The notes under the pieces: generated by a model | The model's database searches: none | Seen by the model: only the letters and a program-made list of their open reading frames with translations | What the model was told of the DNA's origin: nothing | Shown here: positions 4,197 through 45,947 of the stretch, in pieces | Layout: the number at the start of each line of letters is the position of its first letter | Numbering within the stretch: position 1 is the first letter of the stretch | Position numbers and translations under genes: made by a program | Source of the DNA: Arenibacter antarcticus | GTDB lineage: Bacteria > Bacteroidota > Bacteroidia > Flavobacteriales > Flavobacteriaceae | NCBI RefSeq assembly: GCF_041320605.1 | Contig: NZ_CP166679.1 | Coordinates: 4,388,001 to 4,452,000 of the forward strand | Direction: 5' to 3' | DNA length: 64,000 nucleotides

Positions 4197-5237
4197 TTAT
4201 TTTATAAATTCTATTTTCTGTGGTTCTTCAATGTTTTTGCTATCAAAAAAGCCCTGGTCGCCCATCCACTGGTCGCTGTATATTTTACTCATATATCTGG
4301 AGCCATGATCTGGAAAAATCACAACTACATTACTGTTTTCATCAAATTCTCCTAACTGGTCCAATTGCCTAACTGCTTGCATCGCGGCACCACTGGTATA
4401 GCCAACGAAAATTCCTTCAGTTCTGGCAATCTGACGGGCAGTATGAGCACTTTCCTCGTCAGTTACTTTTACAAATTCATCTATAAGTTCAAAATTGGTC
4501 GCTGTAGGAATTAAATTTTTCCCCAAACCTTCAATTCGGTAGGGATATATTTCCTTATTGTCAAACTCACCAGTTTCGTGATATTTTTTTAAGACAGAAC
4601 CATAGGCATCCACTCCAATAACACGGATATCCGGATTTTGTTCTTTAAGGTATTTGGCAGTTCCAGAAATGGTACCTCCCGTTCCACTACAGGCAATTAG
4701 ATGGGTAATATGTCCGTTAGTCTGATCCCAAATTTCCGGTCCAGTACTGTGGTAATGGGCATCAGCATTCAGAGCGTTAAAATATTGGTTGATATAGATA
4801 CTATCTTCCGTTTCCTCGTGTAATCTCTTTGCTACCTCGTAATAAGACCTTGGGTCATCTGCACTAACGTGTGCAGGACACACATAGACCTTAGCTCCCA
4901 TAGACCTCAACATATCTATTTTGTCTTGGGAAGATTTAGAACTAACTGCCAAAATACAGTCGTATCCCTTAATAATACTGATCATAGCAATACTAAAACC
5001 CGTATTTCCCGAAGTGGTCTCTACAATAGTGCTTCCTTCCTTTAATATTCCCCTACGCTCCGCCTCTTCAATAATATGAAGTGCAATACGATCTTTTGAG
5101 GAATGTCCTGGATTAAAGCCTTCTACCTTGGCGTAAAAATTGCCGGTCAAGGATGCTGCAATTTTATTTAATTTGATTAATGGGGTGTTTCCTATAAGTT
5201 CTAGGAGGTTGTTATAAGCATTTATCTTATGTTCCAT
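4197..5237 (-). CDS. capA: PLP-dependent cysteine synthase-like enzyme, probable cysteate synthase
   Basis: 346-residue fold-type II PLP enzyme of the cysteine synthase/cystathionine beta-synthase family. The Schiff-base lysine sits in NPGHSSKDR (Lys48), the cofactor/substrate loop is TTSGNTGF, and the phosphate-binding loop is [10 protein letters not shown]. There is no CBS or haem domain. In Capnocytophaga and other flavobacteria a paralogue of this family next to the alpha-oxoamine synthase makes L-cysteate from O-phosphoserine and sulfite. I infer the same role here from the neighbour; by sequence alone an O-acetylserine sulfhydrylase or cystathionine beta-synthase cannot be excluded. Own promoter (5297-5304) and a leader hairpin upstream. 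Confidence 0.7.
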
Positions 5238-45069: not shown

Positions 45070-45157
45070 CATATCCGGGTCAGAAAAAATAATGTAGAAA
45101 TTTTGTATCTTATTATAAGATTAATAGTCTCCATATAGAACTTAAAAAAGTAAGGCT

Positions 45158-45271
45158 ATGAATAATTGTAAATGCACCGATTGTGATTGTACCAAGTGCA
45201 ATTGTGGGAACTGTTTAAAAAACAACTGCCCTTGTGACAAATGCGAATGCAACAAGTGCGATTGTTGTTAA
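45158..45271 (+). CDS. Metallothionein-like Cys-rich peptide, 37 residues
   Basis: ATG at 45158-45160 to TAA at 45269-45271. Fourteen of 37 residues are Cys, arranged as C-x-C and C-x-x-C units (C-K-C-T-D-C-D-C-T-K-C-N-C and so on, ending D-C-C); the others are mainly Asn, Lys, Asp and Thr. Composition and spacing are those of metallothioneins that hold Zn, Cu or Cd in thiolate clusters, though I cannot match it to a named family. It is 48 bp upstream of a SigZ-like sigma factor gene on the same strand, with a hairpin between. Too small for usual gene callers, but the cysteine pattern makes a chance ORF very unlikely. Confidence 0.75.
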   Translation: MNNCKCTDCDCTKCNCGNCLKNNCPCDKCECNKCDCC

Positions 45272-45276
45272 GAAAA

Positions 45277-45300
45277 AAGGTTGGCCTTTGGGTCGACCTT
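45277..45300 (+). promoter_or_regulatory. Hairpin between the Cys-rich peptide and sigma factor genes
   Basis: AAGGTTGGCC (45277-45286) pairs with GGTCGACCTT (45291-45300) over ten positions with two G-U pairs and a 4-base loop. No T-run follows, so it is not a standard terminator. It may protect the upstream mRNA or uncouple expression of the two genes. Confidence 0.45.
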
Positions 45301-45319
45301 AAACATTCTAAAAGCGAAA

Positions 45320-45841
45320 ATGGACACTGTCACGATATGGAACAAGTTTAACGGTCAAATGTACTTTTTTATACTAAAAAAAGTACAAGATCGAGATGCG
45401 ACTAATGAAATAATGCAAAATTCCTTTTTAAAGATTCATCAAAATATTGATCAATTAAAAAATCAGGAAAAAGTAAAGGCTTGGGCATTTCAGATTGTCA
45501 GGAATGAAATTTACAATCACTTTAACAACTCGACTAAAAAAGTAGAGGACTTTAATTCCGCACCTATCATCCAAACTGAAAATTATTCAGATTTTTGCTG
45601 TTTTGATCACTTTATAACTGACCTTCCTCAGGAATATAGAACGGTAATGACATTGGTCTATATAAATGGAATGAAACAAAAAGAAGCAGCCTCCGAAATT
45701 GGCATCAGTTTGGCCAATGTTAAGGCAAGAGTAAGACGCGCTAAAGCCATTCTGATTATGAACTTTAAAGAGTGCTGTAAGTTTAACTTGAACCATGAAG
45801 GCAAATTGGTAGGCGAGTCCAATTGCAGTCGTTGTAATTAA
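45320..45841 (+). CDS. SigZ-like ECF RNA polymerase sigma factor with Cys pairs
   Basis: 173 residues from ATG 45320 (an in-frame TTG at 45281 is not used). Sigma-2 region about 8-75 (ATNEIMQNSFLKIHQNIDQL) and sigma-4 about 100-150 (LPQEYRTVMTLVYINGMKQKEAASEIGISLANVKARVRRAK). It contains three Cys pairs: Cys93-Cys94 in the linker, Cys152-Cys153 just after sigma-4, and Cys169/Cys172 at the C-terminal end (NCSRCN). The CC after sigma-4 is shared with B. subtilis SigZ-like proteins. No anti-sigma gene is next to it. The cysteines suggest direct sensing of metal or thiol stress, fitting the metallothionein-like gene upstream. Confidence 0.85.
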   Translation: MDTVTIWNKFNGQMYFFILKKVQDRDATNEIMQNSFLKIHQNIDQLKNQEKVKAWAFQIVRNEIYNHFNNSTKKVEDFNSAPIIQTENYSDFCCFDHFITDLPQEYRTVMTLVYINGMKQKEAASEIGISLANVKARVRRAKAILIMNFKECCKFNLNHEGKLVGESNCSRCN

Positions 45842-45903: not shown

Positions 45904-45947
45904 AAATAGACCTATCGAACTTTGGATAACCCAACAGGTCTATTTTC
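45904..45947 (+). terminator. Terminator after the sigma factor gene
   Basis: AAATAGACCT (45904-45913) pairs perfectly with AGGTCTATTT (45936-45945) with further T after; 63 bp downstream of the sigma factor stop codon. Confidence 0.6.

Follow-up and report, generated by a model that had tools for sequence, protein, structure and literature searches.

A metallothionein-like peptide gene and a SigZ-like sigma factor gene recur side by side behind a shared promoter type in marine flavobacteria

Introduction

The small Cys-dense bacterial metallothioneins, among them SmtA/BmtA (PF02069) and MymT, are presumed to be cytosolic metal sinks that are made on demand, and they are controlled by a metal-sensing repressor. 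A short Cys-rich ORF upstream of a gene is also a feature of the mycobacterial poly-cysteine attenuator uORFs. Genes for anti-sigma factors usually sit after the sigma gene in one transcript. SigZ of Bacillus subtilis carries a CC after sigma4. The passage of PMC10141391 that names SigZ lists it as an ECF factor and gives no function, and the part of PMC13055313 considered here uses sigZ expression as the readout of SigZ's own RNA polymerase form, implying that SigZ is autoregulated. The ECF sigma factors CorE and CorE2 of Myxococcus xanthus (ECF44/ECF238) have a short Cys-rich C-terminal extension and linker Cys, and they lack a linked anti-sigma gene. In the sections of PMC3107203 and PMC8999054 considered here, the tail Cys of CorE sense copper, a CxC in the linker is also needed, and the CorE targets belong to metal homeostasis. 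Neither paper mentions metallothionein in its main text. The 21 CRD factors listed in 2011 come from four named phyla, and Bacteroidota is not one of them.

The locus described here lies in Arenibacter antarcticus, and "the window" denotes the whole 64,000-nt stretch of DNA that was analyzed. Its sigma factor has, like CorE, the sigma2 and sigma4 domains and no linked anti-sigma gene in the window. The tail reads CC...CxxC instead of the four invariant Cys of CorE, CxxC...CxC, and the linker holds a CC with a single Cys invariant across the alignments instead of a CxC. By analogy, the sigma factor resembles CorE in logic while lying outside the CorE motif definition. The peptide encoded upstream differs from SmtA/BmtA and MymT in having neither a Pfam match nor His or aromatic residues, and on the present reading it would be controlled by a co-transcribed sigma factor, not by a metal-sensing repressor. 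It differs from the mycobacterial uORFs in that its peptide sequence is under selection and in that sister loci carry it downstream of the sigma gene. The arrangement of Cys-rich peptide and sigma factor recurs across marine flavobacteria behind a shared promoter type. No description of the pair was found in the open-licence literature, a scope outside which most subscription journals lie.

Results

A Cys-rich peptide gene adjoins a SigZ-like sigma factor gene

The features of the locus are collected in Table 1. The earlier note had described a peptide of 37 residues with 14 Cys that ends 48 nt before the ATG of an ECF sigma factor on the same strand, a 10-bp hairpin between the two genes, Cys pairs 93/94, 152/153 and 169/172 in the sigma factor and the lack of an adjoining anti-sigma gene, and each of these is present as described. 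The flanking genes identified by profile searches in the window are RlmF upstream and a convergent deaminase. A terminator had also been placed after the sigma gene. The hairpin exists, and the terminator scan assigns it to the minus strand as the terminator of the deaminase gene and lists none on the plus strand. An Rfam search returned no match at gathering scores.

Table 1. Features of the peptide-sigma locus (positions in the window)
Feature	Position	Strand	Basis or remark
ECF-type promoter, TGTATC (-35) ... GTCTCC (-10)	45104..45135	+	Ends 22 nt before the peptide ATG
Metallothionein-like peptide, 37 aa, 14 Cys, without His or aromatics	45158..45271	+	ORF translation; genus conservation; pN/pS
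Intercistronic hairpin with a 10-pair stem and a 4-nt loop, lacking a clear T tract	45277..45300	+	Folding; covariation
SigZ-like ECF sigma factor, 173 aa	45320 (ATG)..45841	+	ORF, Pfam, NCBIfam, alignment
Cys93-Cys94, sigma2-sigma4 linker	45596..45601	+	One column (Cys94) invariant, 31/31 and 51/51
Cys152-Cys153, just after sigma4	45773..45778	+	Invariant in both alignments (31, 51)
Cys169-x-x-Cys172, C-terminal	45824..45835	+	Invariant, 31/31 and 51/51; predicts the upstream peptide
Terminator-like hairpin	45904..45945	.	Between convergent sigma and deaminase genes; terminator scan, minus strand only

The sigma protein exceeds the Pfam gathering scores for Sigma70_r2 (PF04542) and Sigma70_r4_2 (PF08281). 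The label SigZ-like, also taken from the earlier note, is fair in that the B. subtilis SigZ family (TIGR02959/PRK09637) is the nearest NCBIfam family and the best family match by score, but the 124.5 bits obtained lie below the curated TIGR02959 cut-off of 168.65. The protein shares with SigZ the CC after sigma4. Use of an alternative TTG start at 45281, from which translation would traverse the hairpin, is unlikely.

The peptide has a single match in its own genome. It matched no Pfam or NCBIfam profile at E values up to 10, in searches where short low-complexity queries are hard for profiles, and no PDB entry. The term metallothionein-like therefore reflects composition and Cys spacing. The conserved, Cys-dense CxC/CxxC repeats agree with the composition typical of prokaryotic metallothioneins, and the peptide is a putative metal binder.

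The pair is conserved in the genus and the family

The pairing extends well beyond the strain. Fifteen of the 18 genus genomes have a sigma orthologue (53-100% identity), each with an adjoining upstream ORF of 37 aa and 14 Cys. The other three have neither gene: their sigma matches are weaker (27-34% identity), and the peptide has no match. Upstream of the module, the DNA is similar only in L002-L004, three of the 15, apart from a degree of resemblance between close relatives. The pair thus remains linked in changing surroundings.

TIGR02959 at E ≤1e-26 matched 72 places in 64 of the 249 family genomes. The family set of 85 loci comprises 70 places outside the genus and the 15 genus loci; many loci are close relatives, and the counts are not independent. 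A tail motif, CC...G.L.G...CxxC, occurs in 55 of the 85 sigma proteins, and a Cys-rich ORF lies directly upstream in 54 of these 55; the exception is L124, where the motif is present and the peptide absent. Sigma proteins without the motif have such an ORF in 3 of 30 loci, namely L118 (another peptide type), L133 (an altered tail) and L139 (a shortened sigma frame). Outside the genus, the upstream Cys-rich ORF is present in 42 of the 70 family loci and absent from 28. These positive counts use a looser filter (≥5 Cys and 13%). In the chance control, ORFs with ≥8 Cys and ≥20% Cys occurred twice in 639,372 bp of flanks, and both were module peptides of off-centre loci. The only Cys-rich small ORFs in the flanking control are thus the module's own, which argues that the pair is not a product of chance.

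Two main peptide forms occur at the family loci, type A with 37 aa and 14 Cys, as in the window, and type B with 33 aa and 11 Cys, and the peptide type tracks the C-terminal type of the sigma factor. A scan of genome contigs with a type B query found 472 relatives; the best 80 (61-100% identity to the query) have the peptide in 80 of 80 and the strict promoter in 75 of 80. Matches of the type B peptide in the 249 genomes, 24 in all, fall at TIGR02959 sigma places without exception (E ≤1e-5), in a search that missed several known type B peptides and is no proof of absence elsewhere.

In the phylum, TIGR02959 at 1e-30 matched 53 places in 52 of 395 Bacteroidota genomes. Of these, 44 were inspected and another 7 duplicate places of the family set, while G509 and G654 lie outside the count. 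A Cys-rich small ORF (≥8 Cys) lies beside the sigma gene in 13 of the 44 loci, upstream in 9 and downstream in 4. The peptides include several unrelated sequences, and one of the 13 loci, L283, is the same place as L101. Two matches of the loose filter with just 5-6 Cys (L287, L301) were excluded, and the remaining 29 of the 44 have no Cys-rich ORF. The five top SigZ-scoring sigma proteins (L259-L263) have no Cys-rich small ORF beside the sigma gene. Three plasmid relatives (Priestia, Hymenobacter and Vibrio; of five matches) have no Cys-rich peptide adjoining the sigma gene and no promoter match beside it on the scanned strand.

In one family genome, G220 (L116/L314), an intact promoter stands before an interrupted sigma gene, and the frame of the peptide is disturbed as well; this may be a module in decay or reflect a fault of the assembly.

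Selection on the peptide and conserved Cys of the sigma factor

Peptide length and Cys positions are identical in all 15 genus loci, independently of any selection by length or Cys number, and the Cys pattern, which was checked for loss in the homologues, is kept. In sets of sequences picked for exact length and Cys number, 14 Cys columns are invariant among 23 distinct type A sequences and 11 among 72 distinct type B sequences. The pN/pS ratios of these sets are 0.21 for type A and 0.32 for type B, or 0.38 and 0.54 at non-Cys positions. Both TGT and TGC are used at 13 of the 14 invariant Cys columns of type A and at all 11 of type B. These values show purifying selection that acts on the peptide protein and not only on its codons.

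In an alignment of 31 sigma proteins drawn from the two types, with rows chosen for the tail motif, Cys94, Cys152, Cys153, Cys169 and Cys172 are invariant. The same five Cys are again invariant in 51 sigma proteins (the window protein and 50 from the best 80 type B loci) whose rows were not selected for the motif. The AlphaFold2 model shows an ordinary two-domain ECF fold in which the linker and the tail have low confidence; because these two segments are poorly resolved, the model makes no statement on a metal site. In the PDB, the sigma protein matched ordinary ECF sigma factors and otherwise nothing beyond chance. Direct metal sensing through the sigma Cys is putative.

A same-strand ORF begins ≤100 nt past the sigma stop in 44 of the 80 best type B relatives. 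By eye, these ORFs are helicase-like, OsmC-like, antitoxin-like or channel-like, and no anti-sigma-like gene was seen among the downstream ORFs of the 80 relatives, as judged by eye only. In many relatives from Winogradskyella, Lacinutrix and Olleya (among L179-L254) the helicase-like gene (by eye) starts no more than about 60 nt past the sigma stop; elsewhere OsmC-like, antitoxin-like or ion-channel-like genes take this place.

An ECF-type promoter precedes the peptide gene

Alignment of the 15 genus loci revealed a single, strongly conserved block in front of the peptide in all of them, a promoter element that was absent from the earlier reading. The consensus, drawn by eye, is TGTATCYTTTT-N12-GTCTMCTTA in the genus (type A) and TGCATCTTTTT-N12-CGTCTATTA in type B. 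The general pattern is TGYATC-N16-NGTCT, in which a 16-nt spacer separates the two elements. In the window's own genome the pattern fits with 0 mismatches at the module; 6 other places fit with 3 mismatches, compared with 4 control places. The promoter regex matched 54 of 57 peptide loci, whereas the flanking strand gave 5 matches over 700,354 nt. The misses are L131 and L138, which read AGTATC, and L083, which was anchored at a too-early start codon. When 12 loci, mostly with other peptide types, were re-read by eye, all 12 had the promoter directly before the peptide, and the regex agrees for 10. The third base of the -35 element is T in 24 of 25 type A loci (22 TGTATC, 2 AGTATC), and in type B it is C in 29 of 31 family loci and in 77 of 77 matched loci of the best 80; types were assigned by script in this comparison, and L118, L203, L213 and L232 are unmatched.

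The peptide gene lies downstream of the sigma gene in five loci (L070, L272, L273, L274 and L280), each with one promoter copy before the peptide and a second before the sigma gene. Because a copy precedes each gene in these loci, both genes look like targets of the promoter, which fits autoregulation. A promoter-based coupling of sigma factor and peptide is strongly supported by these sequence comparisons, and we infer that this promoter is recognized by this sigma factor.

The promoter type occurs at metal-related genes of relatives

The exact pattern was found at 40 sites in 38 of 397 family genomes, compared with 2 for the reversed control. Thirty-four of the 40 sites are at the module, one of them at a broken copy (L314). 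Elsewhere, the site in G163 lies at a CDF cation-efflux gene (PF01545, 4e-45; TIGR01297 above cut-off) with a CusB/HlyD-type gene adjacent, the site in G720 at a DUF3703 gene immediately before the module, and the site in G257 at a TonB receptor gene that ends beside the peptide-less sigma gene of that genome. The site in G062 (L173, ~1640-2000) belongs to a CDF-type transporter gene that is broken by in-frame stops (by eye). The sites in G085, at a lipoprotein-like gene, and G697, at no clear gene, may be due to chance. As a separate observation, G062 is absent from the genomes with a SigZ match at 1e-26.

A family-wide pattern with one mismatch matched 95 of 249 genomes and filled the controls too, and therefore exact matches alone were used; the one-mismatch sites G082 and G085:C8 were inspected and excluded from the promoter argument. 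Within the own genus (18 genomes), the strict pattern returned only module sites, in 8 of the 18 genomes, the window's own genome not being among them. With a looser pattern, other sites in the genus occurred at about the control rate among the matches listed (G009, G013 and G017 fall outside). As no second target rises above the control rate in the genus, the metal-gene targets of the promoter come from relatives only.

Sister loci carry other cargo behind the promoter

In 11 of the 28 family loci that lack the upstream peptide, the promoter regex matches past the sigma stop; ten of the matches lie ≤13 nt from the stop and the eleventh at 50 nt. The genes behind the promoter at sister loci include those for a downstream Cys-rich peptide (L070), arsenite methyltransferase (L076, L122 and, in the phylum set, L261, 3 of 3 scanned being above the PRK11873 NCBIfam cut-off; L115 by likeness) and DUF2703 (a Pfam match in L106, likeness in L117). 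In L102 a thioredoxin-fold gene precedes a permease that is ArsP-like by eye, and L129 carries a flavin oxidoreductase gene. Cargo without a clear metal link is also found: L278 carries PAP2, L287 PhzF, L270 a glyoxalase-fold gene and L089 a gene that is aminotransferase-like by eye. The module is one of several cargo kinds in a larger SigZ-like group. The window pair appears to belong to a wider SigZ-like group linked to thiophilic metals and metalloids, into which not all members and cargo fit.

Directly after the sister sigma genes and behind a SigZ-type promoter, L115 (3105-3236), L122 (3108-3248) and L130 (2257-2385, minus strand) encode a peptide of 42-46 aa of the type M[DE]SK...SCR...FGA[HY]RR[YF]C. 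In L115 and L122 the next gene is arsenite methyltransferase-like and has a separate copy of the promoter.

A structure-conserved hairpin lies between the genes

The 71-nt stretch that holds the intercistronic hairpin folds with a z-score of -2.84. Seven of the 10 stem pairs show two-sided compensating changes among 22 type A spacers. These are 22 of 24 distinct spacers; the omitted L134 and L138 do not show the hairpin, nor does L139. A strong hairpin (z ≤-2, mean -5.6) is present in 78 of 78 type B spacers compared with 2 of 74 control segments, two of the 80 spacers having been skipped at <30 nt, and the hairpin sequences differ between type B loci. Judged from the aligned spacers, the hairpin, to which the earlier note assigned no function, is a structure-conserved intercistronic element. 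It more likely marks an mRNA 3'-end or a partial terminator than a full stop, which is less likely because the hairpin in the window lacks a T tract.

Discussion

A putative soft-metal response and its alternatives

We consider it probable that the locus encodes an anti-sigma-free, autoregulated two-gene response to thiophilic metals whose output is the metallothionein-like peptide. Basal SigZ-like sigma factor would stay inactive until a soft metal or metalloid binds to its conserved Cys, namely one or two in the sigma2-sigma4 linker, the CC after sigma4 and the C-terminal CxxC. The active sigma factor would then initiate at the promoter before the peptide gene and give rise to large amounts of the peptide, and read-through into the sigma gene would supply more sigma factor as positive autoregulation. 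The hairpin between the genes would let the short peptide mRNA outnumber the sigma mRNA, and the peptide, by taking up the metal, would switch the sigma factor off and so serve as both sink and brake. The pair probably forms a small self-amplifying response to soft metals, for example zinc, cadmium, copper or arsenic; the roles of the hairpin and of the feedback, like the identity of the metal, are putative. The metal reading is favored because the same promoter type is found at CDF efflux, DUF3703, arsenite methyltransferase and DUF2703 genes. The self-contained module proposed in the earlier note thus stands in its pairing, its Cys pattern and the lack of an adjacent anti-sigma gene, and sigma-driven expression of the peptide is the best reading of the conserved ECF promoter in front of it.

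The main rival is a thiol-redox sensor, in which oxidants or electrophiles would drive the sigma Cys into disulfides and the peptide would serve as a thiol buffer or redox sink instead of a metal sink. The CC and CxxC pairs could form disulfides as well as bind metal, sister loci include a thioredoxin-fold gene and a flavin oxidoreductase that is weakly YpdA-like (below cut-off), and in 2 of 80 loci the gene after the module is OsmC-like by eye. We judge redox sensing unlikely since the promoter targets include metal efflux and arsenic genes and the CxC/CxxC repeats of the window peptide, without His or aromatics, resemble metal cluster ligands. Metals and thiol oxidants have overlapping effects, so the two readings are not mutually exclusive.

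The sister cargo also bears on the proposal that the peptide mainly regulates the sigma factor, with detoxification secondary; the apo-peptide would bind the sigma factor or strip its metal as a soluble anti-sigma factor or metal donor. Very different Cys-rich peptides serve the sister sigma factors, which suggests cargo and not a matched partner. The peptide gene leads here, and in some lineages it lies downstream with its own promoter, unlike the usual order of anti-sigma genes. These points make a regulatory peptide quite unlikely, despite the tight pairing, the peptide type that follows the sigma C-terminal type and the restriction of type B matches to sigma genes in the 249 genomes (E ≤1e-5, with several known ones missed). 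A poly-cysteine leader, at which ribosome stalling at Cys codons would control read-through into the sigma gene as a cysteine attenuator, suits the order of short Cys-rich ORF, hairpin and regulator gene in the window, but is barely credible given that five sister loci lack the leader position and carry the Cys-rich ORF downstream of the sigma gene with its own promoter, that non-Cys residues are under purifying selection, that the Cys codons alternate between TGT and TGC, and that the window hairpin has no T tract.

If the soft-metal response holds, it would give a testable job to SigZ-like sigma factors, which are without a function even in B. subtilis in the part of PMC10141391 that lists SigZ. 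Sigma-driven metallothioneins would join the known bacterial modes of metal buffering, and the promoter motif would allow regulons to be read from sequence. Peptides this short are presumably easily missed in annotation, and widespread metal buffering in marine flavobacteria may thus be overlooked.

A wider SigZ-like group

The soft-metal response may be one branch of a broader design. Bacteroidota SigZ-like factors in general would sense soft metals and metalloids without an anti-sigma factor, use one promoter type, TGYRTC-N15/16-NGTCT, and differ in the detachable cargo that they control: unrelated metallothionein-like microproteins, arsenite methyltransferase, DUF2703 and CDF efflux, with the window as the metallothionein branch. 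The same logic may explain the role of SigZ itself. We regard this generalization as evenly poised. A promoter match lies near the sigma gene in 32 of the 72 sister loci (28 family and 44 phylum), and the 40 of 72 without one count against it.

Very short peptides with ends like CC..CCGG..CC are encoded near SigZ-like genes in L089 (~1240-1347), L020 (1261-1341) and L256 (~5106-5172), the last on a Hymenobacter plasmid with arsenic genes nearby. They may represent a further family of Cys-rich microproteins in the same circuit.
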